From Maribacter litopenaei (GTDB lineage Bacteria; Bacteroidota; Bacteroidia; Flavobacteriales; Flavobacteriaceae), in contig NZ_CP104205.1 of assembly GCF_025244665.1 (NCBI RefSeq), forward strand, positions 1,361,001-1,425,000: a stretch of DNA of 64,000 nt. Reading direction: 5' to 3'. Under the pieces are notes generated by a model. It ran no database searches, had not been told where the DNA came from, and was given only the letters and a program-made list of their open reading frames with translations. Shown here one piece after another: positions 1 through 64,000 of the stretch. Each line of letters begins with the position of its first letter. Within the stretch, counting starts at the first letter, position 1. The translations under genes were made by a program, and so were the position numbers.

Positions 1-651
1 TAACAATTTGCAACCTACCTACCGTTACCAAGTTTATATATTCTTCGTCGAAGAAATGATCCTTAGGTTCAATTGCATCAATTCGTTCCAAATCAATGGG
101 GTTATAGATTACCCGTGTTTTTTCGTCGTTTACGTTAAAGTTTTGAACCAAGTCAATTGCACTGGCCCTGGCATTGCTTACAACTAGGTCTGCTTTGGGA
201 TATAATTTTTTTACCGAGATAGGTGTTGATTTTACTTTGCATGTCACCATAACCATATTGTAGGCTGGGATAATTCCGTTCACTCACCATAAGTTTATAG
301 GGGTGATTTGTAAACCACCTTGCCATAATGTTTACATAACAAGGTCTCGGTAAGAAGGCTGAACGAATGTGTAATGCTTTCCCTCTTTAACAGTTTGGCA
401 TATTTCCATGCCAACCAAGGAAGTTTTAGAAATTTGAATATTCCTGGCTCATCTCCCCTCGATTTTTCTATGAAATGAACGGGTATGTCTTGGGGTATGT
501 CATAGTCAAAGGTATCGTTCATTAATACCAATACTACCTCATGACCTTTGTTTTTCAAATAAGGGAGTAAGTAGGACATTACCCGCTCCGCGCCTCCACC
601 AGCCATGGAGTACATGAAAATTGCAATTTTTGGTATACCTATATTCTTCAT
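1..651 (-). CDS. Glycosyltransferase family 4, 3' end beyond window, two frameshifts
   Basis: This is the N-terminal half of a GT-B fold glycosyltransferase, probably transferring a sugar in exopolysaccharide assembly at the inner membrane. The start at 651 gives KIAIFMYSMAGGGAERV, the usual GGAERV donor-fold opening of GT4 enzymes. The frame breaks at 345-350 (TCTCGG) and 214-219 (CCGAGA). Changing each to TCTGG/CCAGA restores a continuous protein (..LLTRPCYVNIM.., ..INTYLVKKLYPKADLVV..) running off the window at base 1 with IYNPID and VTVGRL motifs. It lies 9 bp after another GT4 gene and is the last visible member of the leftward run. The breaks look like sequence errors, so I call it an intact partial gene. 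Confidence 0.75.
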
Positions 652-660
652 TTCTACTGA

Positions 661-1734
661 CTAGTTTGCGATTTCCAAGAAAAAATCCTCGTATTTTTTT
701 AAAATTATGGATTTGTCGAATTTTTTATAAACAGATTCTGAAACCGATTTTGGATTTAGTTTCGGCAAATGATTTAGGCGGTATAAAAATTCCTCTCCGT
801 CCTTTACCATAAAACCATTAATTCCATTTTCAACAATTTCTTTAGTGCCTCCAGGAACATCAAATGCAATTACAGGGGTTCCGACAGCACAACTTTCCAA
901 AAGGGCATTTGGGAATCCTTCGGATAAAGAACCTTGTAGGAAGTAATCACTTTTCCTTAAGTAAATCGCCACGTCTTTCGTAAATGGGATATATTGAATT
1001 TTGTTTGACAGCCCTAGTATCTCAATCTTATCAAGCAAATCATTTTTTAACGATCCATCACCTATAATTGTATAATTAAAAGGATAATCAATATTTGTCA
1101 ACATCTGCAAAATTCTAGCATGCCCTTTAACGGTAACTAATCTTCCTACAGTAATGAACTTTAGGTGTTTGGAATCACTTGGAATAGAATCATGATATTG
1201 GAAATTATCTGTGATAGGATTATTAATGATCTTCAATTTGTTTTTGTTTAGATTATACAATTGAACACAATCTTCAACCATATCCTTAGATTGGCAAATG
1301 ACATAACCTAATTTTTTTAACGCAAACTTTAAAAGAAATGAAAACCAATCAAAACTGGTTTCCCCTCCAATCTCTTTATAAATTTTTGTAATAGAAGTCT
1401 GTCTACCAACAAACACAACCTTTGGGAATAAAAAGGAAATAAAACCTAATAATAAATTAACATGGGATAGAGTGCCAAAGACAATGTCCGGTTTTCTTTT
1501 TTTTATCAGCGAAATCAGTTTAGGAATAGACTTAGAAACTCTGTTACAATTTAAATATTGAATATTCGTGCCTGTAGTTTCATACCCATTATCCAACTCT
1601 TTTCCTATGACAATTAGTTCGCTTTCAAATTTAGAATTATTCAGATTTTTGGATAAAAAAATTAAAACACGTTCTGCTCCACCAAAACTAAGCATTGGTA
1701 TAATGAAAAGTACTTTTATTTTCGAATGGTTCAA
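661..1734 (-). CDS. Glycosyltransferase family 4
   Basis: Intact 357-residue GT-B glycosyltransferase. The N-terminal Rossmann fold opens with KVLFIIPMLSFGGAERV. A linker motif IINNPI lies near residue 170, and the C-terminal donor-binding domain has FITVGRLVTVKGH, then SEGFPNALLESCAVGTPVIA and GGTKEIV, the E-x7-E type nucleotide-sugar site of GT4. It sits between another GT4 gene and a Wzy-like polymerase on the same strand, so it should add one sugar of the lipid-linked repeat unit on the cytoplasmic side. Donor and acceptor cannot be read from sequence. Length is normal for the family. Confidence 0.88.
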   Translation of the reverse strand: MNHSKIKVLFIIPMLSFGGAERVLIFLSKNLNNSKFESELIVIGKELDNGYETTGTNIQYLNCNRVSKSIPKLISLIKKRKPDIVFGTLSHVNLLLGFISFLFPKVVFVGRQTSITKIYKEIGGETSFDWFSFLLKFALKKLGYVICQSKDMVEDCVQLYNLNKNKLKIINNPITDNFQYHDSIPSDSKHLKFITVGRLVTVKGHARILQMLTNIDYPFNYTIIGDGSLKNDLLDKIEILGLSNKIQYIPFTKDVAIYLRKSDYFLQGSLSEGFPNALLESCAVGTPVIAFDVPGGTKEIVENGINGFMVKDGEEFLYRLNHLPKLNPKSVSESVYKKFDKSIILKKYEDFFLEIAN

Positions 1735-1795
1735 AGTGTTGTTATTTTATATTCTGAATTTAACGGTATGTGGGTTTCAGAATTTTAAAGAAAAT

Positions 1796-2937
1796 TTAAG
1801 CTAATTGGCTTTCGCTAAAAATGTATTTCTCGTTATTAAACTCTCTTATTCTTAAGTATACGAATACGGATAAGGCAATACTTTGATAATTCGCAAAAAA
1901 GGTATGGCTCGCCATAAGGTTCAATAATACCACTATTAGTATGTAAAGTAAATAGGGTTCTTTTTTAAAGTAAACTATACTATACCTAAAGAGATATCCA
2001 TAAGTGCCAATAAAAATCAAAAATGGGATTAATCCGCTTTCGCCCAAAATCATCAAATAGGTATTATGGACTCCTGGGAGTTTTGTTGTCATTACTTGAA
2101 AAGATTTATAGCCTTGCCCAGTCAATGGATTTTTAAAAATCAAGTCGTAATAAATGGCCCAGGTTGTACTTCTACCTTCGTTACCTATAGATTTAGCTTT
2201 CACTTGTCCTTCTCCAAATAGTGCCGTCAACGCTTTAAATCTATCCGGTGCAAATATTCTGCTATCGGTAAATGAAATTATAATAACAAAAGCAACACCT
2301 CCAATCAGGGGGACAAGTAAATTTTTACGGCTCTTAAATATTGCCGTAAAATTTATTAAAACCCAAATTATTATAAATGTTCTAGAAAGTGTTAACATAC
2401 CCGCCAAGGTAAAAATTCCTTGCCCTGTCAATCGAAGTATATTATTTTTAATAGAATAGGAAATTGCCATGCCCAAAAGACAGACGATACCTGCAAGGTT
2501 CGGATTCAAAAAAATCCGCTAAACCTGCCCAAAACTAGCCCATGCATCGCATTTGCATAAGGAAATACAAACGCATTGAGAATAACGCTCAAAGCTCCAA
2601 CAAGTAAAATGTAAAAGAGTTCCTTGTAATTTGTTCCGGCCATGACCTCAATTATGCAGACCACAACTATGGTAAATCTTAAGAATTCCTTTAAAAAAAA
2701 TATTTCGTCACCTTCATAGTTTAACCCACTAATTAAAAAATACAATAATGATGAAATAATGAATGGTATGGTTGGTTTATGACGTTCTTTGGCTAAAACA
2801 AAAAAGGCCAATAAAGAAAGTGAAGTTAAATAACTCGCTGCGGATGAAATTGTAGAACTTGAATAAACCAATAAAAAAGCCGGCATATTACATAATGCCA
2901 AAAAAAGAATTAAATATTTTAGAAGTTGAAAAGCCAA
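1796..2937 (-). CDS. O-antigen/capsule polymerase-like membrane protein (Wzy/ligase type), one frameshift
   Basis: About 380 residues of polytopic membrane protein with ten or so hydrophobic segments, typical of Wzy polymerases and O-antigen ligases. The frame breaks in the A7 run at 2508-2514. Adding one base joins RFSGFF to LNPNLAGIV, the conserved 'RFxGxxxNPN' region at the head of the Wzy_C-type domain. The following loop holds the GEGQVKAKSIGNEGRSTTWA and TGQGYKSF stretches, and VHNTYLMILGESG matches the periplasmic H-N-x-x-L motif of the family. Placed in a glycan locus with a flippase, it most likely polymerises repeat units in the periplasm. Polymerase versus ligase cannot be settled from sequence alone. 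Confidence 0.78.
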
Positions 2938-2948
2938 TTTTTGAAAGT

Positions 2949-3889: not shown

Positions 3890-3923
3890 AAGTAATATTA
3901 ATACATACGTTGTTTATGTAAAA

Positions 3924-7806: not shown

Positions 7807-7813
7807 AGAAATA

Positions 7814-8770: not shown

Positions 8771-8816
8771 ATTTTTTTTTAAAACACGATAAATATATAG
8801 CTAAAAAAAAAAATAA

Positions 8817-10628: not shown

Positions 10629-11105
10629 AAGTAGGTTAACAAAAGGGATTTTTAAGGTTTTACTATTTGGGACACAATTATAACGTTTAATTTTATCGAA
10701 TCGTTTAAAAGCACTTTTTTTTCGACGAACTGCACTTTTTGTTTATTTCAATTAAAATTAAAATCTTTTGAGTTAAAAATTGAGGTCCATTTTTAAACTC
10801 AAGTAGGTACGCAAATCAACGACGTTTTAGATCTCTTTGTCGATGCCTTTAACATTTTATTTTCAATTTATTCGATGAATTGCACACTTTTGTTCCCAAA
10901 CCGTGTTTAAAAGCTAAAAAAAGTTCTATTTAAGACATCAATATTAAAAGAATACCGAAACAATATCTTTATGATTTAAACGATTTAATAAATTTAATAG
11001 GATTGCAAGTGGATTTTTAAAATAACACCTGAGTTCATAAATAATATGATAATCAATTTTTAAAAATTAATTTAACTACTGACTTTTATCATTTGAAAAA
11101 CTGTA
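10629..11105. promoter_or_regulatory. Divergent intergenic region with repeated TTCGAYGAAYTGCAC element
   Basis: A 477-base region between the leftward lyase gene and the rightward acyltransferase gene. Two related elements, TTCGACGAACTGCAC at 10721-10735 and TTCGATGAATTGCAC at 10871-10885, stand 150 bases apart in the same orientation, each followed by a T-rich stretch ending TTTTGTT. A third relative occurs at 48823-48837. A weak TATCTTTA box lies at 10964-10971. No open frame of note is present. The repeats look like regulator binding sites, but no regulator is known for them. Confidence 0.4.
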
Positions 11106-16656: not shown

Positions 16657-17688
16657 TTAGCCTTTATAACCGTAAAAACTTTTATACCAATTTACAAAAC
16701 GTTGTACCCCTAATTTTATTGGTGTATTGGGCCGATAATCGTAATCTATAATTAAATCACCAACGTTCGCCCAGGTTTTTTCCACATCGCCTGGTTGCAT
16801 TGGAAGCATTTCTTTTTGAGCTACCTTACCCAAACTTTCCTCAATGGCCGTTATAAAATCCATCAGTTTTACGGACTTGCTATTTCCTATGTTATAGACG
16901 CTGTACAGTTTTTCTGAAGATACATTTTGTTCCAAAGGTGTCTCTAGGATTCGTACGACTCCTTCCGTAATATCATCTATATAGGTAAAGTCCCTCTCCA
17001 GGTTGCCATTGTTGAAGACCTTGATTGGTTTGTTATTCATAATGGCATCTGTAAACAAGAACATGGCCATATCCGGCCTGCCCCAAGGGCCATAGACCGT
17101 GAAAAATCGAAGCCCGGTGGATTTAAACCCGTATAAATGACTGTACGCATGCGCCATAAGCTCATTGCTCTTTTTTGTGGCAGCATATAAACTCACCGGA
17201 TGATCCACAGAATCCGTCGTTTCAAAGGGTATTTTTTCATTCAGGCCATAGACACTAGAGCTACTGGCATAGACCAAATGTTTTATGTCATAATTTCTAC
17301 AGCACTCCGAATATTTAGAAAGCCTACCAAGTTACTATCCACATAGGCTTCTCGGATTTTCAAGGCTGTATCTAACCCCCGCTTGTGCGGCCGGATTGCA
17401 AACAGTATCAAAACTGTATTTTTTACATAGCTCAGGAAGATTTTCACGATCTTCCAAGGCCATGCGTATGAAGGAAAAACCGGTATGGCTAGTACTGGTT
17501 GTCTCTTTGTTCCACTGTTCGGCTTCTTTTTGGGCCACTCCCAATTGTTCCAAACGGGCAAATTTTAGACCAACATCATAGTAATCATTGATATTGTCCA
17601 AGCCTATAACCGTATGCCCCTTTGCCAACAAAGATTTAGATACAAAAAAGCCTATAAATCCAGCGGCACCTGTTACCAAAATCTTCAT
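16657..17688 (-). CDS. NAD-dependent epimerase, UDP-glucuronate 4-epimerase type, two frameshifts
   Basis: Extended SDR enzyme with [32 protein letters not shown] (typical of UDP-GlcA 4-epimerases), AAQAGVRYSLENPEAYVDSNL, ASSSSVYG, the YAATKK catalytic pair, GLRFFTVYGPWGRPDMA and ERDFTYIDDITEG. Breaks at 17350-17355 (TCTCGG) and 17307-17310 (CCGA) vanish if TCTGG/CCAGA is restored, giving about 343 residues. It would convert UDP-GlcA from the adjacent ugd product to UDP-GalA. The start ATG overlaps the ugd stop (ATGA), so translation is probably coupled. Confidence 0.85.
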
Positions 17689-19082
17689 GACTGCCCTATT
17701 TTGTAATAGTTGAACCCAATTTCCTCCATAATCCTGGTATCCAAAATTCGTCTGCCATCAAATACAAAGGCAGGCTTTAGCATTTGGTCATAAATGGCTT
17801 TCCAATCATAGGTTTTAAACTCGTCCCATTCCGTAACAATGGCAATGGCATGGGCATCTTTTGTAACTGCTATGGGGTCTGTGGTAACCTTCAATAGTTT
17901 TCTATTTTCTTCAGGAGCCCGCGTACCCAAGTAGTCCAAATCCGCATAAATCCTATCTTCACTCACTTTGGGGTCATACACCAAAATTTCCGCGCGTTCC
18001 TCCAATAACGCATCTGCTACCGCAATGGCCGGGGATTCACGGGTGTCATTGGTATCCTTTTTAAAGGCCCATCCATACAAAACGATTTTTTTGCCTGAGA
18101 CCGTATTGTAGAGGGTTGAAATAATAGTGTCCGCAAACCTTCTTTTTTGGTAGTCATTGGCAATCACCACCTGCTCCCAGTAATCGGCCACTTCGTTCAG
18201 TCCATAGGATCTTGCTATATACACCAGGTTTAGTATGTCCTTTTGAAAACAAGACCCTCCAAAACCTACGGAAGCATTTAGGAATTTTGGCCCTATTCTA
18301 CTATCGTAACCTATGGCCCTGGAAATTTCCTGTACATTGGCATCGGTCTTTTCGCATAAGGCTGAAATAGTATTGATAGAGGATACCCGTTGGGCCAAAA
18401 AAGCATTGGCTACCAATTTTGAAAGTTCGGAGGACCAAACGTTGGTCTGCAGAATACGCTCCTTGGGCAACCAATGTTCATATACCGCACTTAAAGCGTC
18501 CTTAGCCTTTTGTCCTGAAGGGGTATCGTTTCCTCCAATAAGCACCCGATCGGCATTTAAAAGGTCATCAATGGCCGTTCCTTCTGCCGTAAATTCGGAT
18601 TGGACAAAATCTCGAAATGGACAGAATTACCGGTATTGTCCAAAATATTCTGTATGGCCTGCGCGGTGCGCACGGGCAAGGTAGACTTTTCCACTACAAT
18701 TTTATCGTCCTTGGCTACCTTGGCAATGTTGCGGGCACACAATTCAATAAATTTTAAATCCGCTGCCTGTCCTTTACCCTTACCGTATGTTTTTGTAGGG
18801 GTATTTACGGATATAAAAATCATTTGGGCCTCGTCTATAGCCTTGTCCACCTCGGTAGAAAAAAAGAGGTTCTTTCCCCTACTTTCCCCTACAATTTCCT
18901 TTAGACCCGGTTCGTATATAGGAAGATTATCCGGATTATCCGTATTCCACTGGGCAATACGGTCTTCATTGATATCTACTACGGTTACCTGAATTTCTCG
19001 GACATTTGTTCGCAATGACCGACATGGTGGGGCCGCCCACATATCCTGCTCCTATACAGCAGATTTTTGTAATCTTTTTCAT
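17685..19082 (-). CDS. ugd: UDP-glucose 6-dehydrogenase, two frameshifts
   Basis: Makes UDP-glucuronate from UDP-glucose with two NAD+. The start at 19080-19082 gives [19 protein letters not shown]. Motifs are [67 protein letters not shown] with the catalytic cysteine, and [16 protein letters not shown]. This long eukaryote-like Ugd form (~465 residues) is common in Bacteroidota. Breaks lie at 18996-19001 (TCTCGG) and 18594-18598 (TTCGG), both removed by restoring TCTGG. It sits directly upstream of the UDP-GlcA epimerase gene. Confidence 0.88.
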
Positions 19083-26401: not shown

Positions 26402-27808
26402 TTACTTACCGATGCAAAAATTGGCAAAAATGTTTCCCAATAGTTCATCATTGGTAACTTCTCCGGTTATTTCCCCTAAATGATATAAAGTTTCCTTTAC
26501 ATCGATAGCCATAAGGTCACTAGAGAGGTCTTCGGTTATGCCCATTTGGACTTTTTCAATGGACTGTAATGCTCGCAAAAGAGAATCATAATGCCTACTG
26601 TTCGTGACAATAGTTTCATTATTTCTCAGGGCACCAGTATTTATTAATTGTAATAACTGGTGTTGTAACTCCTCAATCCCATGCCCTGTTTTTGCCGATA
26701 TTAAGTGTGCTTTATGCAATATTGCCTTAACAATCTCCTTTGCTTCTTCCGTGAGGACATCGGATTTATTTATTAATAGAATGAATGGCTTTTCTCGGAT
26801 TCTTCTTCCTAATCTTCCCGGCTTCTGATTGAATCCTGTTTAATATAGCTCCATAGGAATCAACTTTAGTCAAGGTACTTCCATCCACCAATAAAATGAC
26901 TATTTGTGATTGTATTATTTTTTCAAAAGTCTTTTTAATACCTATACTTTCTACGACATCTTCTGTTTCCCTAATACCCGCCGTATCGATGAACCGAAAT
27001 CCTATTCCACCAATTGTAATTTCATCTTCTATACTGTCCCTAGTGGTACCGGCAATATCCGAAACTATAGCCCGTTCTTCATTCAGTAATGCGTTTAAAA
27101 GTGTGGATTTGCCTACATTGGGTTCGCCCACTATGGCTACGGGAATACCATTTTTGATGACATTGCCCATGGCAAATGAATTGACGAGTCTCTTCAATAC
27201 TTCTTGAATGCGATTGACTAGAGATTTAAACTGAGTACGATCCGCAAACTCAACATCCTCTTCGGAAAAGTCTAGTTCCAACTCAATCAGTGAAGCAAAG
27301 TTTAACAATTGTTTCCTCAAATTCGGATTTCGTTACTGAACCCCCCACGCATCTGCTGCATGGCTATGTGATGGTTGGATTCATTATCCGAGGCAATTAG
27401 ATCGGCAACGGCTTCGGCCTGACTCAAGTCCATCTTGCCATTTAAAAATGCCTGCAGGGTAAACTCTCCTGCTTCGGCCATTCGGCAACCATTTCTTAGA
27501 AAAAGTTGGATGATTTCTTGTTGAATATAGGGTGAACCATGACAGGAAATTTCTACAACATTTTCACCCGTGTACGAATATGGCCCCTTAAAAATGGAGA
27601 CCAATACTTCGTCCAATACTTTTACACCATCAACAATATGGCCCAAATGTATAGTATGGGTTTTCTGCTTATTTAGGTTCTTCCCACTTACAGATTTAAA
27701 AAGTTTGGACGTTAAGGAGATGGCATCCCTTCCCGAAACTCTAATAACGGCAATGGCTCCAGCTCCTGAGGCTGTTGCCAATGCTACTATTGTTTCGTCT
27801 CTTTTCAT
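26402..27808 (-). CDS. mnmE: tRNA modification GTPase MnmE, two frameshifts
   Basis: GTPase that with MnmG makes the (c)mnm5 modification at wobble uridine 34. The N-terminal folate-binding domain has ETIVALATASGAGAIAVIRVSG and GEFTLQAFLNGKMDLSQAEAVADLI. The G domain has GEPNVGKSTLLNALL, IAGTTRD and FIDTAGIRETED, and after repair LLINKSD. The C terminus is FCIGK with the catalytic cysteine. Breaks at 27322-27326 (TTCGG) and 26793-26798 (TCTCGG) are repaired by TCTGG. As a near-essential gene of normal length (~468 residues) it is strong evidence that such shifts are not real. A -7 box lies only 4 bases before the ATG. Confidence 0.92.
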
Positions 27809-28823: not shown

Positions 28824-29942
28824 TTAATTGTTCAGCATAACCGGCATTACCAACATGGTAATATTTTCCCCTTCGTCCAAACCGTCTATAGGTGTTAGAA
28901 TTCCTGCTCGGTTGGGTAAACTCATCTCCAGTGAGACTTCGTCAGATCCCAAGTTGTTCAACATTTCCACAAGGAATCTAGAGTTGAACCCAATTTGCAT
29001 ATCATCACCCTGATAGGAACAAGTCAGTCGTTCCTCCGCCTTGTTGGAATAATCAAGATCTTCCGCTGAAATATTCAATTCAGCCCCAGCAATCTTAAGC
29101 CGAATTTGATGTGTAGTTTTATTGGAGAATATAGATACCCTTTTTACAGAGCTTAAAAACTGACTTCTAGCTATTGTTAGTTTATTAGGGTTTTCCTTTG
29201 GAATAACCGCTTCGTAATTTGGATACTTGCCATCAATTAATCGACAAATAAGTTCGGTATCGTCAAAGGTAAATTTTGCATTACTGTCATTGTACTCTAT
29301 TAACACATCGGATTCACTTCCTGCCAAAATGCCTTTCAATAATGTGAGGGGCTTTTTGGGCATGATAAATTCAGCAACCTCTGATGCGGTAACGTCCTCT
29401 CTTTGATATTTTACTAATTTATGCGCATCAGTAGCCACAAAAGTTAAACTTTCCGGTGAAAACTGGAAAAACACCCCACTCATTACCGGACGCAAATCAT
29501 CATTACCCGCAGCGAAAATTGTTTTGTTAATGGCAGTAGCCAAAATATCCCCTAATAGAGTCGTTGAACTGGGACTGGAAAGCTCTACAGCTTTGGGGAA
29601 CTCTGCCCCGTCTGCATAGGCCAGGGCGTATTTACCATGGTTTGAGCTGATTTCTACGGTATTATTATCTGCAACTATAAATGTCAAGGGTTGCTCGGGA
29701 AAAGTCTTTAAAGTGTCCAAAAGTAACCTAGCCGGAACTGCGATAGTTCCTTCATTATCGGAATCCACATTCAAAACAGAGCTCATGGTGGTCTCTAAGT
29801 CTGATGCCGACACTGTCAATTTATCTTTGTTGAGATCAAACAGGAAATTGTCCAAAATTGGAAGGGTGTTGCTATTGTTAATAACACCGCCCAATATTTG
29901 AAGTTGTTTTAATAAATAGGTACTGGAGACAATAAATTTCAT
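28824..29942 (-). CDS. dnaN: DNA polymerase III sliding clamp (beta subunit)
   Basis: Intact 372-residue processivity clamp. I start at MKFIVSSTYLLKQLQILGGV (29942) because this is where DnaN proteins begin; an upstream in-frame ATG would add ten unrelated residues. Blocks NTLPILDNFLFDL, TIAVPARLLLDTLK, AGNDDLRPVMSGVFF, FVATDAHKLVKY, LICRLIDGKYPNYEAVIP and the ending ITMLVMPVMLNN are characteristic of the three-domain clamp. It is free of frameshifts. A TATCTTTG box upstream at 30028-30035 is the likely promoter. Confidence 0.94.
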   Translation of the reverse strand: MKFIVSSTYLLKQLQILGGVINNSNTLPILDNFLFDLNKDKLTVSASDLETTMSSVLNVDSDNEGTIAVPARLLLDTLKTFPEQPLTFIVADNNTVEISSNHGKYALAYADGAEFPKAVELSSPSSTTLLGDILATAINKTIFAAGNDDLRPVMSGVFFQFSPESLTFVATDAHKLVKYQREDVTASEVAEFIMPKKPLTLLKGILAGSESDVLIEYNDSNAKFTFDDTELICRLIDGKYPNYEAVIPKENPNKLTIARSQFLSSVKRVSIFSNKTTHQIRLKIAGAELNISAEDLDYSNKAEERLTCSYQGDDMQIGFNSRFLVEMLNNLGSDEVSLEMSLPNRAGILTPIDGLDEGENITMLVMPVMLNN

Positions 29943-30250
29943 TGGTCGTTCTCGGTTTTGTTTCAATCTCAAAAGCTTTCTTAACCTTTAGGAAAATACC
30001 CAATAGGTTGCCGCTTTTGCCATCAAACAAAGATATTTTAAAAGGATATTTATAGGAAACAAACTTATCAACAGTCTAGTATGAGGTGGTCTATCTTGAA
30101 TTAACCATTTTACTGGGGTTAAGCAACCGTTTTATACAAAAACGTAAATGGAGTTATTAACTATAAAGATGTTTGAAACAGTATTCTGGTTTCCCTAAGT
30201 GTTCAATCACCAAATACGAAAATGGCCTATTGGAGATAATACATTTCTGT
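29943..30250. promoter_or_regulatory. dnaN upstream region with candidate promoter
   Basis: 308 bases with no supported gene. On the minus strand TATCTTTG (30028-30035) is a -7 box with a TTTG 24 bases further upstream, giving a dnaN leader of about 80 bases. A weak CGTTTT/AAAACG hairpin occurs near 30130-30146, without a clear T-run. Short reading frames here have no recognisable content. Confidence 0.4.
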
Positions 30251-31081
30251 TTAAAGAAAATCTATAATGATAGTATCCCTATAATCCAGTCCCAAAAGTG
30301 TGGCCGCACCCCCTACAGTTTTAAGGTTACTTTTGTAAATGGCCAATTCAATATATTCAGATGAATTAAAAAGAGCCAAAAGGTCACCATCACCTTTTCG
30401 TTTACTTTTTTCAACGGAATAATCGATAATATCATTATAGGCCTTGTGTATCTTTTTGATTTTATGGTTCCGCACCAAAAGTTCAAAATCCCGTCCTTTT
30501 CTGTAGGCTTCAAAAAGATGTTTTTGAATGTTGGTCACCACGTTGCCATAATTGTCAATGTAGATAACACTACCTATAATCTTTTTGCCATCGTCTACGA
30601 TACGAGGCATAAATTCCCTTAGATCCTTAAGTTCGTTAAAAGGCTTTCCAACAACCTCCAATGTACCACCTCGGGCAATATGGCAGGCTACTTGTACAAA
30701 GACGCTTAAAACAGGAAAGGAACCATGCAAGGGATCTGGAATTTTAATCTCAACGATTTTTTCCGGTTTTACTTCTGAAGTAATAAGCCCAATGACCCCT
30801 GTGTTGGCACTAATAAAGTAGTGTCCGTTGATTAATATGGCAATATGCTGATTCTCTTGGGTAGCTTCTGAGTCGACACCTACTATATGAATGGAACCCT
30901 TTGGAAAACTATTATATGAATTTTTAAGTATGTAGGCACACTCTTGTATGTTAAAGGGAGCCACATTATGGGAAATATCAACAATTTTGGCATCGGGTAA
31001 TTCGCTATAAATGGATCCTTTTAATACCCCAACAAAGTGGTCTTTCAATCCAAAATCGGTAGTGAGGGTAATGATTGCCAT
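30251..31081 (-). CDS. SAM hydroxide adenosyltransferase (DUF62 / SAM hydrolase family)
   Basis: Intact 276-residue enzyme of the fluorinase/chlorinase superfamily that in most bacteria uses water to convert S-adenosylmethionine to adenosine and methionine. The opening IITLTTDFGLKDHFVGVLKG, the segment VDISHNVAPFNIQECAYIL, HIVGVDSEA and YFISANTGVIGLI form the N-terminal SAM-binding domain, and IYIDNYGNVVTNI begins the C-terminal domain. The D-x-H triad region is present; a halogenase-specific loop is not evident. The gene is divergent from phoH. Confidence 0.88.
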   Translation of the reverse strand: MAIITLTTDFGLKDHFVGVLKGSIYSELPDAKIVDISHNVAPFNIQECAYILKNSYNSFPKGSIHIVGVDSEATQENQHIAILINGHYFISANTGVIGLITSEVKPEKIVEIKIPDPLHGSFPVLSVFVQVACHIARGGTLEVVGKPFNELKDLREFMPRIVDDGKKIIGSVIYIDNYGNVVTNIQKHLFEAYRKGRDFELLVRNHKIKKIHKAYNDIIDYSVEKSKRKGDGDLLALFNSSEYIELAIYKSNLKTVGGAATLLGLDYRDTIIIDFL

Positions 31082-31100
31082 GCAGCAATGTTGATATGTT

Positions 31101-31135
31101 TTTGGTTAGGCAAACTTAATTTTTACTTAAATTTG
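31101..31135 (+). promoter_or_regulatory. phoH promoter (TTTG-N23-TAAATTTG)
   Basis: TTTG at 31101-31104 and TAAATTTG at 31128-31135 fit the Bacteroidota -33/-7 pattern with slightly long spacing. Transcription from about 31140 excludes the ATG at 31138 as a start and supports the TTG at 31211 for phoH. Confidence 0.5.
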
Positions 31136-31210
31136 ATGTACAAAATTAAACAAAAAAATAGCCGAGCGAAATTAAACTTGGCGGAATTAAAATCTTCAAA
31201 ATCCCACTGT

Positions 31211-32164
31211 TTGAACGAAATCGTACTAGAACTCACCGAAGTAAGTCCAAGAGAGTTTTTTGGGCAACAAAATGAAAATATAGAACTTCTAAAAAAATAT
31301 TTTCCAAAATTAAAAATTGTCGCGCGGGGCAATAAAATAAAAGCCTATGGTGACGAAGACCAACTCGAGGAATTCGATAAGCGCTTTGATATGCTTACGG
31401 AGCATTTTGTGAAGTATAATAAGCTAGATGAAAATAGTATAGAACGAGTTCTAATGAGCGAGGATTCCAAGGATTACCATGGCCCCGAAAATAGTGGGGA
31501 AACATTGATCCATGGTGTAAGTGGCAGATTGATTAAGGCACAAACCGTGAATCAACGTAGATTGGTGGATGCGGCAAAGAAAAATGATATGGTATTTGCC
31601 ATTGATCCTGCTGGTACTGGTAAAACATATACCGGAGTGGCGTTGGCGGTAAAGGCATTGAAGGAAAAGCAGGTACGTAGAATTATTTTGACTAGACCTG
31701 CTGTTGAGGCCGGGGAAAATCTTGGCTTTTTACCAGGTGACCTGAAGGAAAAATTGGATCCCTACATGCAACCTTTATATGATGCCCTTAGAGATATGAT
31801 ACCCGCTGAAAAGTTAGCGCATTATATTGAAAATGGTACTATACAAATTGCACCTATGGCCTTCATGCGAGGAAGGACCCTAGACGATGCATTCGTAATT
31901 TTGGATGAGGCCCGAACACGACCCATGCGCAGATGAAAATGTTCCTGACCCGTATGGGAAGAAATGCCAAGTTTTTACTTACAGGGGATCCGGGACAAAT
32001 AGATTTACCCGGAAGAACTATTTCTCGGACTAAAGGAGGCTTTGTTGATATTACAAAATGTGGAGGGCATCGAAATTATATATTTGGACGATAAGGACGT
32101 CATTCGCCATAAATTGGTAAAGAAAGTGATAGATGCCTATAAAACAATAGAACATCAAAACTAA
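31211..32164 (+). CDS. phoH: PhoH family ATPase (PhoL type), two frameshifts
   Basis: PhoH-like P-loop NTPase of about 318 residues: an N-terminal KH-like region ([32 protein letters not shown]), the Walker [40 protein letters not shown] and PLYDALRDM, then [21 protein letters not shown] (Walker B) after repair. Breaks are at 31912-31915 (CCGA) and 32023-32028 (TCTCGG); restoring CCAGA/TCTGG yields [19 protein letters not shown] and the stop at 32162-32164. The start is taken as TTG 31211 ([10 protein letters not shown]) from family alignment and promoter position. It lies 5 bases ahead of purC, so the two may be co-transcribed. Confidence 0.87.
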
Positions 32165-35713: not shown

Positions 35714-37147
35714 CTAGCAATCGCTTAGAAAAACACCAACGGCCAATCCTCCTTCAGAAGTTTCTTTGTATTTGGAACTCATATCCTTGGCCGTTTCCCA
35801 CATGGTTTGTACCACCTTGTCCAAGGGTACCTTCGCTTCTGATGGATCCGATCCCAATGCCAACTCTGCCGCATTAATGGCCTTGATGGCTCCCATAGAA
35901 TTTCGTTCTATACATGGAATTTGGACGAGGCCACCTATGGGGTCACAGGTAAGGCCCAAATGATGTTCCATGGCTATCTCCGCGGCCATGAGTACTTGTT
36001 CGGAGTCCCACCCAGTAGTTCTGTTAAAGCTCCTGCCGCCATAGCAGAGGAAACTCCTATTTCGGCCTGACAACCGCCCATAGCAGCAGAGATGGTCGCT
36101 CCTTTTTTAAAGATGCTTCCAATTTCCCCGGCCACTAATAGAAATTGTTTTATGTGTTCAAAATTACCCGCATGGTTTTCAATGACCAAGTAGTACATTA
36201 AAACTGCGGGTATTACACCTGCACTTCCATTGGTAGGTGCGGTCACAACTCTTCCTAAAGAGGCATTCACTTCATTTACACTAAGTGCAAAACAACTTAC
36301 CCATTGCAAGATTTGTCTGAATTTGACCTCGGTCTGTCTGATTGTTTGTAACCATTCCTCCGGATTGGAATAGGGGAGGTCGCCCTTAAGATTTTCATGC
36401 AGCTCAAATGCCCTTCGTTTTACATTGAGCCCGCCAGGTAATTTTCCTTCGGTATGGCATCCGGTGTACATACACTCTAACATGGTGTTCCAAACCCTGC
36501 TAATAGCATGATCAATTTCTTCATCGGATCTTAATGATTTTTCATTTTCCAAAACTATTTCGGATATAATATTGGAATTTTTGTTACAGACCTCCAATAG
36601 CTCAGCTCCGTTTTCAATAGGGTAAGGAAAATTGTTAAAGACTTTATTCTTTTTTTTGGCATTTTTTCGTTCCTCGACTACCACAAATCCTCCTCCAATT
36701 GAATAATATGTTTTGGAGGTTTTTTTACCACTAACCAGATTAGCATTAAATTTTAATCCATTGGCATGGAAGGGCAGAAATTTTTTATGGAAGACAATAT
36801 CATTTTCTCGGGTTGAAGCTTAAGATTTTAGTCCCACCAAAATTTAACTTACAGGAGCTTTTTACCGCGTCGACTAGTCCATGGATGTTTTCTATGGGTA
36901 TGGATTCGGGGTCGGTACCCAATAATCCTAGAATGATGGCGTAATCTGTGGCATGTCCTTTACCAGTTAGTGAAAGTGAACCGTATACGTGAACCGAAAT
37001 TGAGACCACCTTGTCAAATTGCCCTTCTTCTTTAAGTTCTTTGATCCATCTTTCTGCCGCTCTCCAAGGTCCCAAGGTGTGGGAGCTAGAAGGACCAATG
37101 CCAATTTTGAGCATGTCAAAAATGCTAATGCTTTCTCTTTGTAACAT
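35714..37147 (-). CDS. sdaA: L-serine ammonia-lyase, two frameshifts
   Basis: Iron-sulfur L-serine deaminase giving pyruvate and ammonia. The beta domain has [24 protein letters not shown]. The alpha domain has [40 protein letters not shown], and [18 protein letters not shown], carrying the cluster cysteines. Breaks at 36806-36811 (TCTCGG) and 35999-36003 (TTCGG) are resolved by TCTGG, giving SFNPENDIVFH and [20 protein letters not shown] and a ~478-residue single-chain enzyme of normal length. A minus-strand TAACTTTG box at 37177-37184 is the likely -7 element. Confidence 0.9.
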
Positions 37148-37347: not shown

Positions 37348-39261
37348 ATGAGTAAGATTATTGGAATAGATTTGGGTACTACCAACTCCTGTGTCTCCGT
37401 GATGGAAGGTAATGAGCCAGTAGTAATTCCAAACGCAGAAGGGAAAAGAACAACGCCGTCCGTAATAGCTTTTGTTGAGGGCGGTGAAATAAAGGTTGGT
37501 GATCCTGCGAAAAGACAGGCGGTAACCAATCCTAATAAAACTATTTACTCCATAAAAAGATTTATGGGGAATAAATTTTCCGAATCGGAAAAAGAGGCAA
37601 AAAGGGTTCCATATAAAGTAACAAAAGGGGATAACGATACGCCAAGAGTGGATATCGATGGACGTTTGTATACTCCTCAGGAATTGTCTGCAATGATTCT
37701 TCAAAAAATGAAGAAAACTGCGGAGGATTATTTGGGACAGGATGTTACACGTGCGGTAATTACTGTACCGGCTTACTTTAACGATTCCCGTGAGGCAAGC
37801 CACAAAGGAAGCGGGTGAAATTGCCGGTCTAACAGTTGAGCGTATTATCAATGAACCGACAGCTGCCTCATTGGCTTATGGATTGGATAAAAAGGATACC
37901 GATCAAAAAATTGTGGTTTTTGACTTCGGTGGTGGTACACACGATGTATCCATTTTAGAATTGGGAGACGGCGTTTTTGAAGTGTTGGCTACCGATGGGG
38001 ATACGCATCCGGGAGGTGACGATGTCGATCAAAAAATTATAGATTGGTTGGCAGAAGAATTCAAGGCCGAAGAAGGTTTGGATTTACGCGACGATTCCAT
38101 GGCGCTACAAAGATTACGCGAGGCTGCTGAAAAAGCAAAAATCGAATTGTCATCTTCAGCTCAAACTGAAATCAATTTACCATATGTTACGGCCACTGCA
38201 ACGGGGCCAAAGCACTTGGTACGTACGTTGACCAGATCTAAATTCGAGCAATTGATCGCGGATTTGGTAAAAAGAACAATTGAGCCTTGTGAAACTGCCT
38301 TGAAATCTGCAGGACTTTCAAAAAGCGATATTGATGAGATTATTTTGGTAGGTGGTTCTACGAGAATCCCTGCGGTACAGGAAGCTGTTGAGAAATTCTT
38401 TGGCAAGAAACCTTCTAAAGGCGTTAACCCGGATGAAGTTGTGGCCATTGGTGCCGCTATCCAAGGTGGTGTATTGACAGGAGATGTAAAGGATGTATTG
38501 TTATTGGATGTTACTCCATTGTCCCTCGGAATCGAGACTATGGGGAGTGTTATGACCAAATTGATCGAGGCCAACACAACGATCCCAACGAAGAAGTCAC
38601 AAGTGTTTTCCACAGCTGCAGATAATCAGCCTTCGGTAGAAATCCATGTACTTCAAGGTGAGCGTCCTATGGCAGCCGATAATAAAACCATTGGTAAGTT
38701 TCACTTAGATGGAATTCCGCCAGCGCCCGGAGGTACGCCGCAAATTGAGGTAACTTTTGATATTGATGCCAATGGTATCATCAAAGTTTCTGCAACGGAT
38801 AAGGCAACTGGAAAATCCCAGGATATAAGGATTGAAGCATCTTCTCGGATTGACGGAGGAAGAAATCAAAAAGATGAAGGCTGAAGCCGAAGCTAATGCG
38901 GAAAGTGATAAAAAAGCGAAGGAAAAAGCTGATAAGTTGAACGAGGCCGATGGAATGATATTCCGAGACAGAAAAGCAACTATCGGAGTTTGGGGATAAA
39001 TTGTCCGATGACAAGAAAAAACCAATTGAAGAAGCACTTACTGAGCTTAAGGCAGCATATGAAGCTAAGGATGTAGCTCTAATTGCACCTGCTTTGGATA
39101 AAATCAACGAGGCTTGGAAAGTGGCTTCGGAGGAAATGTACAAAGCCCAAGCTGAGGCACAGCAGGGAGGAGAACCGGCACAAGGAGAACCTACTGCTGA
39201 TGGCGGAAGTGCTACGGAAGGCGATAACGTTGAAGACGTAGACTTCGAAGAAGTCAAGTAG
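37348..39261 (+). CDS. dnaK: Chaperone DnaK (Hsp70), three frameshifts
   Basis: Hsp70 chaperone of ~637 residues. ATPase motifs: [40 protein letters not shown] (after repair), [16 protein letters not shown] and [11 protein letters not shown]. The substrate domain has [17 protein letters not shown], and the tail ends EDVDFEEVK. Breaks: 37788-37793 (CCGTGA), 38843-38848 (TCTCGG) and 38963-38968 (CCGAGA). Restoring CCAGA/TCTGG gives the invariant NDSQRQ, ASSGLTEEEI and IFQTEKQL. Because DnaK is needed and highly conserved, these shifts must be sequence errors. Two small variants (THDVS for SFDVS-type residues, THPGGDDVD for TxLGGDDFD) may also be base errors. Confidence 0.94.
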
Positions 39262-41536: not shown

Positions 41537-41600
41537 AAATCAATCGTCTTTGTTTTTACCTCTTGGTATTCTATTCCTTAATTTTACATAAAAAAGGAAA

Positions 41601-43178: not shown

Positions 43179-44931
43179 ATGAAATACTCCAATATACCCG
43201 TAGCCCAATCCATTATTGGGCATTGTAAAGCTAATGGGATTAAAGACATTATTATTTCTCCCGGTTCCGTAAATGCACCTTTGACGCTTTCCTTTACAAA
43301 TGATTCCTTTTTTCGCTGTTTTAGTATTGTAGATGAGCGTTGTGCGGCCTTTTTTGCATTAGGTATGGCCCAAAATTTACATAAGCCAGTAGCTTTGATA
43401 TGTACATCGGGTAGTGCCTTATTAAACTATTATCCGGCGATTGCGGAAGCCTATTACAGCGAAATACCACTGGTGGTCATTTCTGCGGATAGACCCTCCT
43501 ATAAAATCGATATTGGGGACGGGCAAACTATTCGACAGGACCATGTATATGAAAGGCACATTGGCTATTCGGCCAACTTGAGACAAGACCTCACGCACGC
43601 AACGGAAAGGATTGAGAGGTATCGGCCTGAATGGGTTATTGAGAAGGACCTTGAAAAGGAGCAGGAAAACGTTCGTATTTTTAATCAAGATGAATTAAAA
43701 AAAGCATTGACCACTACGATTCAGGATAACCTTCCAGTCCATATCAATGTCCCTTTTGAAGAATCTTTATATACAATTGAGGAGATGGAATTAGTGCTAC
43801 CGGAACCCATCCAAGGTAGAATTGAAAATGAGGAAAAGAATACAACGGAGGCTTTAAGTTTATGGCAGCATGCCAAAAGAAAAATGGTGCTGGTTGGAGT
43901 TAACGATCCAGGTCAACTCGAACATGAGTTTGTAAAAATACTAGGTGAAGATCCCTCTGTGATTGTGTTTACGGAAACAACCAGCAACGTGCATCATCCC
44001 TATTTTTTTAATAGCATTGATTCTATATTGGCTCCGATAGAGTTGAGCAGTAATAGGCAGTTATTATTTGAAGATTTAAGGCCGTGAAATTTTAATTACA
44101 ATTGGCGGACATGTGGTTTCCAAAAAGATAAAGGCTTTTTTGAGGGAGTTTACGCCAAAACATCATTGGCATGTGGGCACTTCAAGGGCCAATGATACGT
44201 TCTTTTGTCTAAAATGGCATTATAAGGAATCACCTAACCAATTTTTTAAAAAGATGTACACGCCATTAGGTAATAGTACTACTTCTAGCTATTTTGAAAG
44301 ATGGAATAAAATAAGGCACAATTATAGAGATAGGAGGGCTACATATATTGAACAAATTCCGTATTCGGATTTTATTGTCTTTGACAAAGTGTTAAAGTCA
44401 ATTCCTAATAATTATCAATTGCATTTGGCAAACAGTTCAACCATACGGTATACTCAATTGTTTCAATTAGATCCATCCTTAAAAGTTTTTTGCAATAGGG
44501 GCACCAGTGGAATTGATGGTAGTACGTCAACGGCTTTGGGAGCATCGGTTTATGGCAAATCCCCAACTTTATTGATTACAGGGGACCTTAGTTTCTTCTA
44601 TGATAGCAATGCGCTATGGAACGACCATATCCGAAAGGATTTTAGAATTGTATTGATAAACAATGCAGGTGGCGGTATTTTCAGAATTTTACCCGGCCGA
44701 AAAGACACGGAAACCTATGAACGGTTTTTTGAAACCAAGCATGAGTTAAACGCATCCAAGTTATGTGAAATGTTTAAGATTGAATACAGTGCTGTTTTTA
44801 ATGAAGATGAATTACAAAGAGAGTTGATCAATTTCTATGGACAGTCTGATTTTCCGAGACTTTTGGAGATTCATACTCCCCGACAGTTGAACAATAAAAT
44901 TTTGACAGATTATTTTCATTTCATATCTTAG
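43179..44931 (+). CDS. menD: SEPHCHC synthase MenD, one frameshift
   Basis: ThDP-dependent enzyme joining isochorismate and 2-oxoglutarate. N-terminal blocks: IIISPGSVNAPLTLSF, VDERCAAFFALGMA, CTSGSALLNYYPAIAEAYY, VISADRP, DGQTIRQ. C-terminal ThDP blocks: FCNRGTSGIDGSTSTALGAS, TGDLSFFYDSNAL and LINNAGGGIFRIL. The frame breaks at 44082-44087 (CCGTGA); restoring CCAGA gives DLRPEILITIGGHVVS and a ~584-residue protein. An upstream TTG at 43176 is in frame but I prefer ATG 43179. Confidence 0.92.
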
Positions 44932-54014: not shown

Positions 54015-54020
54015 TGTACC

Positions 54021-55099
54021 ATGAAGGATTCCATGATCCATCCTGAATTTAAAATAAAAGGGAGACCCATTTCCAGGAAGGACCTATCAGAGTTAGCTTA
54101 TAGTTTTATCAAAGAAGGTGAACCCTATCAAGTAAGTATTGGAAGTTTTTTATTGGATTGGCTATCACCTAAAAATTCTATCGTAGTAAATACCTCTGGT
54201 TCCACAGGAACCCCAAAATCAATTTCCCTGCTAAAGGAACATATGAAGAATAGTGCCTTGGCGACAGGTGCTTATTTCAATTTAACTCCTGGAACGACTT
54301 GTTTACATTGCCTTCCCTGTGAGTATATAGCGGGTAAGATGATGTTGGTCCGTGCATTGGTCTTGGGATTGGATATTCATTTCGTAGAGCCAAGTTCCGC
54401 GCCTTTAAAGAGTATTGATAATCAAAAATCTTTTGATTTTTGTGCGATGGTTCCTTTACAAGTCCAATCCTCGTTTGATGAAATCGACCGATTGAAGAAA
54501 CTTATTATTGGCGGGACTCCCGTTTCAAAAGAAGTAAAGAAAAAACTGTTTCCCAAAAAAACCAAGTGTTTTGAGACCTATGGAATGACGGAAACCATAA
54601 CCCATGTGGCCATCAAGGAGATTACCTCGGAATTTGAACAACCACCTTTTAAGGCATTGCCCAATGTTTTCTTCTCATGTGACAAACGAGGGTGCTTGGT
54701 AATTGAGGCACCCCTTGTGGTGATGGAAAAGGTAGTGACCAATGATATAGTGGATCTGGTTTCGGACCAAGAATTTCATTGGCTGGGAAGATATGACAAT
54801 GTTATTAATTCTGCTGGAGTAAAACTTTTTCCGGAGACTATTGAAAACAAATTGATGCCTCCGGTAGAAAGCCCCTTTATTATTGCGGGTATTGATGATG
54901 AACGTCCGGGACAAAAACTGATATTAATTCGGAATCTGATTCCTCACAAAAATTTGATATGGCCAGTTTAAACTCCATAAAAACATTGGAACCTTATGAA
55001 CGACCAAAAGATATATTATATCTTAACACTTTTATACGAACTGAGAATGGTAAAATTCAAAGAGAACTGACCATAAAACAGGCCATTAATAATCAATAA
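54021..55099 (+). CDS. menE: o-Succinylbenzoate-CoA ligase MenE, one frameshift
   Basis: Short ANL-superfamily ligase forming OSB-CoA. The P-loop is VVNTSGSTGTPKSI, A5 motif FETYGMTETITHVA, A7 region HWLGRYDNVINSAGVKLFPE. The frame breaks at 54928-54932 (TTCGG); TCTGG restores LILILESDSSQKFDM and reaches GKIQRELT (A10 lysine) and the TAA at 55097-55099, ~360 residues. Flavobacterial MenE lacks much of the N-terminal domain of longer ligases, so this length is normal. Two TCTGG copies inside the gene are uncorrupted. Confidence 0.9.
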
Positions 55100-55113: not shown

Positions 55114-56461
55114 ATGCGAAGAATAGTATTCTTTCTAATCGTTACTTCCGTTTTAACCTTGAATGCACAACGTATCTTACCCGAGAAGGAAAGGGCAAAA
55201 GTAATTGATGAGTTATTGGACGATCGTTTTAATAATCTATTACCCCAATTGATGGATGATGCCAATATTGATATGTGGGTGGTCATTTCAAGGGAATATA
55301 ACGAAGATCCCGTGTTGCGAACGATGCTGCCAGCAACTTGGCTAAATGCTAGACGTAGAACCATTTTGTTGTTCTATAGGGATAAGGTGAAAAATAGCAT
55401 TGAAAAATTAGCGGTTGCCCGTTATAATGTGGGAAAAAACATTGAATCTGCATGGGATAAGGAAAAAGAGCCGGACCAATGGAAGCGATTGATGGAATTG
55501 ATATCTGATAGAACCCCCCGGAAGATAGGGCTCAACTTTTCAAAGAATGCACAATATTGCGGACGGTTTGGATAAAACCGATTATGACGAATTCATGTCC
55601 AATCTACCCAAAAAATTCAGTTCAAAAGTGGTTTCAGCAGAGCAACTCGCCGTCCGTTGGATAGAAACAAGAACAGACCGCGAAATGGTCATCTACAATC
55701 AGTTGGTAGATATTACCCACGACATTATTTCGGAAGCGTTTTCTGAAAAGGTAATAACGCCAGGAATTACCACAACTTCTGATGTAGAATGGTGGATGCG
55801 TCAAAAAGTAACCGATTTAGGATTAGAAACCTGGTTTCACCCCACGGTAGATATCCAAAGAACAAGCGAAGACCTGGTTGGGCACCTCTATTCCTTTTCA
55901 CGGTAGACCTGAGGATATGGTCATCCTTCCAGGAGACCTTTTGCACTGCGATTTTGGAATTACATATTTGAGATTGAACACCGATTGTCAAGAACTGGCC
56001 TATGTCCTTAAACCTGAAGAAAAGAAAGCTCCGGATTTTTTGGTAAATGGATTAAAGGACGGTAATAAGGTGCAGGACTTTTTGACCCAAAACATGATAG
56101 CAGGAAGAACGGGCAATGAAATTTTGGCTAAATCCCTTAGCGATGCCAAGGCGGCCGGTTTAAGACCTTCCATTTATACCCATCCTTTGGGTATGTATGG
56201 GCATTCTGCAGGTACCACTATTGGTATGTGGGATTCTCAAGGTGGGGTCATGAAAGATGATGGCGAAAACTACCCTTTAAATCCTAATACGGTGTATGCC
56301 ATTGAACTCAATACGACCATAACGATTCCGAATGGAAACGAGACATTCGAATTATGTTGGAGGAGGCAGGATTTTATGGTGAGAATGGCTTCAGATATGT
56401 AAATGGAAGACAAACCGAACTTCTGTTGATACCAAGGGTAAAAGAACACCAAGGAAATTAG
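55114..56461 (+). CDS. Secreted M24 (Xaa-Pro aminopeptidase-like) peptidase, three frameshifts
   Basis: Pita-bread-fold peptidase with signal peptide (MRRIVFFLIVTSVLTLNAQ) and ~448 residues. Blocks: MWVVISREYNEDPVL, ARRRTILLFYRD, RWIETRTDREM, LPGDLLHCDFGITYLRLNTD (metal Asp pair), YTHPLGMYGHSAGTTIGMWD (His), and NTVYAIELNTTI (Glu), with the last metal Glu in the repaired RIMLEEAGF. Breaks near 55540-55552, 55880-55882 (extra G, LVGTSIPFHG) and 56347-56350 (TCGA). These three are not clearly CCAGA sites. It likely trims dipeptides in the periplasm. The stop is at 56459-56461. Confidence 0.8.
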
Positions 56462-62679: not shown

Positions 62680-62702
62680 TTCTTAGGCTAAAGATAAGGA
62701 GT

Positions 62703-62710
62703 TAAATTTG
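62703..62710 (+). promoter_or_regulatory. Candidate -7 box (TAAATTTG)
   Basis: TAAATTTG stands 27 bases before the oxidoreductase ATG at 62738. No clear -33 element was found. Confidence 0.35.
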
Positions 62711-62737
62711 GGTAAATTGTAAACAAAATATAAAAGT

Positions 62738-63712
62738 ATGGTACGATGGGGTATCGTGGGTGCTGGAAAAATTGCACACACTTTTTCAAAGGATTTGGCA
62801 TTGGTTGCAGGGGGTACACTTACCGCTGTTGGTTCGAGAAGTCTTGAAAAGGCAAAGGAATTTGCTGCTGAATATGGGGCTGCCCATACCTTTGGAAGTT
62901 ATGATGCCTTGTTTGAAAGTGATACCATAGACGTTGTTTATATAGCTACGCCGCATACCAATCATACCGAGCTGGCCATAAGGGCGATGCAGGCCGGTAA
63001 GCACGTACTTTGTGAAAAACCTATGGGCATAAGCAGGCCCGAGGTGGAAAGGATGGTTCGTGTAGCTAAAAAGGAAAAAGTTTTTTTAATGGAGGCCCTT
63101 TGGTCACGATTTAATCCCACCATAAATGCGGTAAAGGACTTAGTGGATTCAGGTGAAATTGGGGATGTGGGATATCTGTATTCAGATTTTGCTTTTTATG
63201 CTTTGGATCGGGACGAAAATGGAAGACTGTTAAACCCCGACTTGGCCGGCGGTTCTTTGCTGGACATCGGGATATACCCAATATTTTTATCCTATTTGAT
63301 GCTGGGAATGCCTACAGATATTATGGCAAATGTACATTTTCATAAGACAGGGGTGGAGAAGCAATGTAGTATGGTTTTTGACTACCCCAATGCACATGCC
63401 ATGTTGTACAGTGGGCTTACTACAAATTCTGAAATGAAGAGCGAAATTTCAGGAAGTAAGGGTTCTATTTATATCAATCCTAGGTGGCATGAGGCTACTA
63501 ACTATACCTTGGTAAAAGATGGTGAAACAAAAACTGTGGAATTGCCCAAGATAGGAAAGGGATATGGTCATGAGATAGAGGAAGTGCATGCATGTTTGCA
63601 GGAAGGAAAATTGGAAAGTGACCTGTGCACCCATCAGAATAGTTTAGACTTGATTTTTTTAATGGACACCATACGCTTGAAAACAGCTATTAAATTTCCT
63701 TTTGAACAATAA
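62738..63712 (+). CDS. Gfo/Idh/MocA family oxidoreductase
   Basis: Intact 324-residue NAD(P)-dependent sugar-type dehydrogenase. WGIVGAGKIAHTFSKDL is the nucleotide-binding turn, followed by VYIATPHTNHTELAIRAMQAGKHVLCEKPMGI (catalytic EKP lysine), EALWSRFNP and GGSLLDIGIYPIFLSYLMLG. The last resembles dimeric dihydrodiol dehydrogenase/glucose-fructose-oxidoreductase relatives with the D-x-G-x-Y active-site motif. The physiological substrate is unknown. Confidence 0.9.
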   Translation: MVRWGIVGAGKIAHTFSKDLALVAGGTLTAVGSRSLEKAKEFAAEYGAAHTFGSYDALFESDTIDVVYIATPHTNHTELAIRAMQAGKHVLCEKPMGISRPEVERMVRVAKKEKVFLMEALWSRFNPTINAVKDLVDSGEIGDVGYLYSDFAFYALDRDENGRLLNPDLAGGSLLDIGIYPIFLSYLMLGMPTDIMANVHFHKTGVEKQCSMVFDYPNAHAMLYSGLTTNSEMKSEISGSKGSIYINPRWHEATNYTLVKDGETKTVELPKIGKGYGHEIEEVHACLQEGKLESDLCTHQNSLDLIFLMDTIRLKTAIKFPFEQ

Positions 63713-63784
63713 TAATCGCTGGGAAAATTGGAAAGGCATTTTAAAAATTACGATATTTGATGTTCGCTTAAAACCAAAGGAAAG

Positions 63785-63967
63785 ATGGGAATGAATAAGA
63801 ATACTGTTTTGGCATGGGCCACATTTATTATGATTTTAGTGGGGTTGCTTTTAATCGGTGCGGGGGCCTTTCGATATGACGAAGTGGCGGGCTGGGGCTT
63901 CGCTTCTGTCGGTATCGGGTTTTTTGCCATTGCCTGGGTTTTTAATGCATTAAAGGGTAGGGTGTAG
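63785..63967 (+). CDS. CAL67264-type small membrane protein
   Basis: 60 residues with two membrane helices (TVLAWATFIMILVGLLLIGA and WGFASVGIGFFAIAWVF) joined by a short FRYDEVAG loop. The sequence matches what I recall of the small flavobacterial 'CAL67264 family membrane protein'. No function is known. The start could be M1 or M3. It follows the oxidoreductase gene by 72 bases. Confidence 0.75.
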   Translation: MGMNKNTVLAWATFIMILVGLLLIGAGAFRYDEVAGWGFASVGIGFFAIAWVFNALKGRV

Positions 63968-64000
63968 GTGTTTTGTTTTAAGTTCTCAGTTAAAGGTAAT

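Follow-up and report, generated by a model that had tools for sequence, protein, structure and literature searches.

Frameshifts in a Maribacter genome assembly concentrate on CCAGA, very probably as base-calling errors at a methylated motif

The stretch of DNA analysed here, referred to as the window, comprises 64,000 nucleotides (positions 1..64000; G000:C1:1361001-1425000) of a Maribacter genome assembled as a single contig of 3,864,532 bases. Many of its genes are interrupted by frameshifts, and these frameshifts, together with the pentanucleotide CCAGA on which they concentrate, are the subject of this report. The completeness of the host genome is estimated at 81.68%, a low quality estimate compared to the 97-100% of 16 out of 18 genomes of the same genus. 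Four Maribacter relatives with intact open reading frames (G007, G005, G002, and G013) were used as references. DNA identity between these relatives and the window was mostly 71-82% in matches longer than 300 bases.

Frameshifts were detected by frame-change-tolerant alignment of the window to the intact coding sequences of the relatives, which covered approximately 48 kb of the 64 kb. As a result, 142 single-reference events were obtained and merged into 48 clusters. Clusters were kept if both flanks reached an identity of at least 50% to one or more of the relatives. This left 41 well-supported clusters (24 with a +1 shift, 16 with -1, and a single +2), and seven clusters with weak flanks (21651, 21677, 35232, 42263, 42291, 54931, and 60415) were dropped. 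Of the 42 genes that aligned to G007, 23, including essential-looking ones, contained one or more frameshifts, and the relatives showed no frame shift at the places shifted in the host. The dnaK gene (37348..39258, plus strand), identified by family match, is shifted near 37790 (CCGTGA context), 38844 (TCTCGG), and 38965 (CCGAGA), each time against all four relatives. Two frameshifts were also located in each of the minus-strand genes that an earlier note on this DNA had named sdaA (35717..37147; near 36810 in CCGAGA and 35999 in CCGA), mnmE (26405..27808; near 27321 in CCGA and 26797 in CCGAGA), and ugd (17688..19082; near 19000-19012, where two relatives place the shift differently, and 18594 in CCGA). 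On the plus strand, the gene at 31037..32161 is shifted near 31914 (CCGA) and 32024 (TCTCGG), with four relatives supporting each event, and the gene named menD (43179..44928) near 44083 (CCGTGA context). A further plus-strand gene (55114..56458) carries three frameshifts, near 55547 (other context), 55899 (TCACGG context), and 56332 (CCGA). The event near 54931 (TCGG) in the gene named menE (54021..55093, plus strand) had a flank identity of 0.47 and lies outside the 41.

Within a 19-nt core around the shift, 29 of the 41 clusters contained CCGA or TCGG, compared to a background of 8.4% over the 16,052 codon positions of the alignment (p=1.9e-22). The longer form, CCGAGA or TCTCGG, was found in 15 cores (background 0.6%, p=1.5e-23), and four further clusters displayed other variants (CCGTGA, CCAGCA) described in the earlier note. 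Relative to the gene, the motif was read as CCGA in 17 clusters, as TCGG in 13, and as neither in 11, with both insertions and deletions in each orientation. The window retains only 22 copies of CCAGA, 16 of them CCAGAT, compared to about 106 expected at the density of the relatives; CCGAGA is present in 27 copies. The earlier note had assigned about 40 of some 50 frameshifts to CCAGA/TCTGG. The concentration on this motif was confirmed, with the count now at 33 of 41 in the alignable part. Both orientations and both types of indels were recovered as claimed, and the reported numbers of intact CCAGA and CCAGAT copies agreed exactly. All 11 frameshift positions named there were found again within 16 bases. 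Among these, 54928 falls in a dropped weak-flank cluster, and 18996 was placed 4 or 16 bases off depending on the relative and was hence counted as other context. The prediction that half of the window would be called pseudogenes is a fair description of 23 shifted genes out of 42.

Outside the window, 167 further genes totalling 186,235 bp were aligned, which revealed 150 frameshift events. Of these, 145 were retained, with +1 shifts in 75 and -1 shifts in 70; CCGA was present in 109 and an intact CCAGA in none. The motif excess persists outside the window, as judged almost entirely from an adjacent 400-kb stretch. Twenty stretches scattered over the genome were usable for the k-mer test described below and hardly for the frameshift test, as they contained few matches to DNA of the relatives. 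In the pooled set of 186 events, the top 4-mer was CCGA (138 versus 15.8 expected) and the top 6-mer was CCGAGA (70 versus 1.0 expected).

A reference-free k-mer test compared 864 kb of the host genome (the window and 40 stretches of 20 kb) with 800 kb from the relatives, including 520 kb from G007. CCAGA was found 280 times versus approximately 1,437 expected (log2 -2.35, z -21.1), which was the largest shift of any 5-mer. The next one by fold change was GGACC (log2 -0.56, z -6.6); 5-mers overlapping CCAGA, such as CAGAA and CTGGA, were shifted too. All 15 one-base neighbours of CCAGA occurred at 0.76-1.45 of expectation. The highest value belonged to CCGGA, whose excess is a product of the error. 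No depletion was seen for CCAGG/CCTGG (1.09). Survival of CCAGA depended on the flanking bases and ranged from 0.00 (CCCAGAC) to 0.85 (ACCAGAT). Per 20 kb, CCAGA was present in 2-12 copies in host segments and in 18-54 copies in segments of the relatives. Genome-wide, CCGAGA was counted 1,760 times in the host versus 245-858 times across 12 genomes of the same genus. None of 397 genomes of the family stood out with the same signature: G116 displayed a similar ratio (274 versus 62 in the control) yet is 99% complete, and G110 had a similar count with a ratio of 1.9.

Errors at CCAGA also include substitutions that leave the reading frame intact. In 467 gapless blocks with 233,943 bp of aligned coding sequence, differing residues were scored for motif context. 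Missense changes in CCGGA context numbered 73, versus 4 in a swapped control in which the roles of the genomes were exchanged. These changes were L->P (CCG) in 29 of 29 cases (control 3/5), W->R (CGG) in 9 of 13 (control 0/0), R->G (GGA) in 18 of 25 (control 0/8), and Q->R (CGG) in 17 of 25 (control 1/11), with p-values of 1e-8 to 4e-17 for the four classes. The same blocks contained 90 copies of CCAGA in the host and 382 in the relative, and 529 and 438 copies of CCGGA, respectively. As a rough estimate, about two fifths of CCAGA sites would have turned into indels and about a quarter into CCGGA, with about a quarter left intact.

A second motif is affected in a different way. The observed-to-expected ratio was 0.68 for GGACC/GGTCC, 1.43 for GGATC, and 1.06 for GGCCC. 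In the same aligned coding sequence (approximately 234 kb), 36 protein changes were located in GGATC/GATCC context versus none in the swapped control: G->D in GAT|CC context (20/59; control 0/27), P->S (6/65; control 0/46), V->I (5/81; control 0/83), T->I (4/18; control 0/17), and W->stop (1/6; control 0/0). The loss of GGACC was strongest in YGGACCR (0.57) and absent in RGGACCY (1.05).

The 16S rRNA genes are altered as well. All six 16S copies of the relatives G007, G002, and G011 read GGACCAGACTCC; G005, in which the 16S pattern had no hit, was outside this comparison. The comparison was confined to 16S, since 23S rRNA consists of N in the stretches of the relatives and its alignment breaks down. 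At the CCAGACTCC site, which is intact in these six copies, both host copies are altered and read ATCGAGACTCC and ACTGAGACTCC, differing from the relatives and from each other. The altered part of the gene includes a target region of universal primers. Further GGWCC sites in 16S carry C-to-T or G-to-A changes, which are found at alignment columns 506, 547, and 580 in host copy b and at column 545 in both copies. Columns 255, 283, 285, 286, and 842 are the same in both host copies, unlike the relatives, and look like species differences; the change at column 842 (GGTCC -> GGCCC) is not of the error type. The two rRNA operons, located on L137 and L201, carry different 16S errors. Since the errors differ between copies, they compromise any identification based on 16S sequences of this assembly. 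The picture given in the earlier note was right for indels at CCAGA and incomplete otherwise, having missed the in-frame rewriting to CCGGA, the second motif, and the changes in 16S rRNA.

The host genome was searched for five methyltransferase families (PF01555, PF02086, PF00145, PF02384, and PF07669). This profile search, aimed at type III, D12, and other m6A/m4C enzymes as well, revealed no PF01555 or PF02086 methyltransferase, though frameshifted or divergent genes could have escaped it. PF02384 was matched at three places and PF07669 at four. Two strong loci of these families look like type I HsdM, while two weak loci, at 1965809 and 412484, are probably methylases of proteins or tRNA, judging from the adjacent genes and the N-terminal residues. 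The strong PF02384 matches lie in type I restriction-modification-like loci on L183 (approximately 7321-10986), apparently split into several frames, and L184 (approximately 7543-10834). The cytosine-5 family, PF00145, was represented by three loci in four pieces, and the scan points to enzymes of this class as candidates.

Locus A (L141:14864-16369, G000:1952124-1953629; PF00145 E 3e-88) encodes an N-terminal helix-turn-helix. It is followed by an HNH-nuclease gene, and the two (together L141:14864-17459) possibly form a self-regulated restriction-modification pair. Its nearest plasmid matches are 55-56% identical and located in LlaJI-family loci. Locus B (L150:5624-6868; PF00145 E 3e-65) is less similar to its nearest plasmid matches (43-48%), the neighbours of which are MutH/Sau3AI or BglII/BstYI nucleases. 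None of the LlaJI-, MutH/Sau3AI-, or BglII/BstYI-type nucleases of these plasmid neighbourhoods matched the genes beside A or B. Locus C (3175056-3176331) is itself split by a frameshift. Its closest resemblance is to methyltransferases that adjoin annotated SinI-family nucleases, one on a Vibrio plasmid (identity 61% over 268 residues and 54% over 125) and one from Pseudomonas (49% and 62%). The SinI site is GGWCC, and by sequence similarity locus C is a good candidate for the GGWCC methyltransferase. No match to a SinI nuclease was found next to it (L185). Searches of solved structures, ncbifam, and PADLOC gave no specificity for the candidate enzymes. Of the two candidates for CCAGA, A and B, we tentatively prefer A.

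The errors sit on exact motifs, in protein-coding and 16S rRNA genes alike and in both orientations. With high confidence, we regard the frameshifts as long-read consensus base-calling errors at methylated CCAGA and, in addition, GGACC/GGTCC. The assembly would be a long-read, probably nanopore-only, product of native DNA. CCAGA would be modified, most likely to 5-methylcytosine (m5C), by one of the cytosine-5 methyltransferases of the genome, and the base caller would misread the modified site as CCGAGA (+1), CCGA (-1), or CCGGA (substitution). At GGACC/GGTCC, the second methylated motif, it would misread C as T (GGACC -> GGATC). The earlier note had proposed a base-calling error at a modified motif, and the confinement to one exact 5-mer in both orientations, the indels, the disagreeing 16S copies, and the low completeness support it. 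Its reading of the frameshifts as an assembly artefact is right in substance, and the methylation reading is well supported but indirect. A decaying or mutator strain with real pseudogenes and true mutations at a hot spot would also yield the frameshifts that the deposited sequence does contain, and true deamination could in principle produce C-to-T changes in methylated GGWCC. Such a strain would, however, have to carry three shifts in dnaK, damage in 23 of 42 genes, different alterations of both 16S copies at a site conserved in the relatives, and insertions, deletions, and substitutions all on one exact 5-mer, which makes real decay very improbable. That CCAGA acts as a recoding signal, for instance in programmed ribosomal frameshifting, has a negligible probability, and nothing was found in its favour. 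Programmed frameshifting would be expected to act in one shift direction, on the sense strand, and in coding sequence only. The orientation data, with +1 and -1 shifts on both strands of genes, and the alterations in 16S rRNA display the opposite pattern, and the relatives are unshifted at the same places. The exclusion of this mechanism in the earlier note is upheld.

A weakness of the base caller at unmodified CCAGA would also explain why survival depends on flanking bases, as a context effect. The near-normal frequency of the 15 one-base neighbours draws a sharper boundary than expected from context, though, and a second motif, matching another known m5C specificity, has its own type of error. 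Moreover, none of the 397 family genomes, whose sequencing platforms are not known, stands out. We consider an error without methylation improbable. An N6-methyladenine (m6A) or N4-methylcytosine (m4C) mark in place of m5C is a more serious competitor, albeit an unlikely one: the A-to-G change and the indels are located at the A of CCAGA. The lack of matches to PF01555 and PF02086 speaks against it, as do the strong PF02384 loci, since enzymes resembling type I HsdM would have bipartite sites. In addition, the m6A error of R10 data, in which G before methyl-A is read as A in the portion of PMC12016153 considered here, would convert CCAGA to CCAAA if A5 carried the methyl group, and CCAAA occurs at 1.01 of expectation.

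Several observations weigh against base-calling errors at methylated CCAGA and GGACC/GGTCC, or narrow the claim. Eight of the 41 window clusters lie in other contexts, neither at CCGA nor at its variants. Of the 186 pooled events, 48 lack CCGA; some of these are CCGTGA variants, homopolymer-like, or GGACC-like, with CCGTGA (7 versus 0.2 expected) and AGGACC (4 versus 0.1) being enriched. Counts from outside the window come nearly all from one adjacent stretch (184,660 of 186,235 bp). Substitutions at the DNA level are non-specific: CCAGA of the relative corresponded to CCGGA in the host 47 times versus 11, and to CCAAA 52 times versus 6. When a 5-mer is depleted, all changes that lead away from it appear asymmetric, so that these counts are not proof alone, and the protein-level test was used instead. 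The density of CCGGA also varies naturally among relatives, with 171 and 118 copies per 100 kb, and the size of its share among altered CCAGA sites is uncertain. The nuclease fragment adjoining locus C belongs to the EcoO109I family (PF14511). EcoO109I recognizes RGGNCCY, and this context is not depleted (RGGACCY 1.05 versus YGGACCR 0.57). Finally, as no other family genome among the 397 stood out with the signature, enzyme and error cannot be linked by association.

Errors of this class are known. Dcm m5C motifs account for approximately 70% of nanopore consensus errors with default models in the part of PMC6591954 cited here. As in that case, the errors in Maribacter are confined to motifs, with homopolymer errors as the next class, and probably reflect an m5C mark that the model had not learnt. 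Unlike Dcm errors at CCWGG, they affect CCAGA and GGACC/GGTCC and spare CCAGG/CCTGG, in data that are probably from nanopore. Strain-specific, methylation-related errors at consistent motifs are likewise described for nanopore typing in PMC11389150 and PMC12016153. The present case would be similar in its consistent, presumably methylated motifs. The errors described there are R/Y ambiguities beside methyl-adenine, whereas here visible indels dominate and the candidates are cytosine-5 enzymes. In Neisseria meningitidis, the m5C type IIS system NEIS0771 recognizes CCAGA, with support from MspJI cleavage and no signal in SMRT sequencing, according to extracts of PMC7973814 and PMC7046676. Maribacter shares the pentanucleotide with it, and its candidate genes likewise encode cytosine-5 methyltransferases. 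The SinI-family system shares GGWCC and the methyltransferase similarity with locus C, and differs by its nuclease, which has no match beside locus C, where an EcoO109I-family fragment is located. No report of CCAGA methylation in Maribacter was found in the literature searched, and it appears to be new.

The dnaN gene (28824..29972, minus strand), identified by family match, is intact and 97% identical to those of Maribacter flavus and M. thermophilus, which places the host in Maribacter, a genus of marine flavobacteria. In another single-contig genome of the genus, dnaN is present in two frames (G011:C1:3331590-3332722); that assembly may have errors of its own, and its CCGAGA count is not unusual. 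The +2 event at 41597 (plus strand), an example of a shift away from the motif, was placed by alignment in an A-rich run.

The artefact is larger than first described and includes silent protein errors, 16S rRNA, and a second motif; by extrapolation, the genome probably contains several thousand altered sites. Automated annotation would classify roughly half of the window's genes as pseudogenes and overlook the in-frame errors. Methylated motifs can be named from an assembly, with no need for raw signal, by combining k-mer loss with the direction in which residues change. Tentatively, and at somewhat less than even odds, locus A may encode a CCAGA-specific cytosine-5 methyltransferase, type IIS-like in Bacteroidota, for a motif that the literature consulted describes only in Neisseria, with two methylated motifs revealed by the assembly alone. 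The frameshifted genes of this Maribacter strain are probably intact in the cell.

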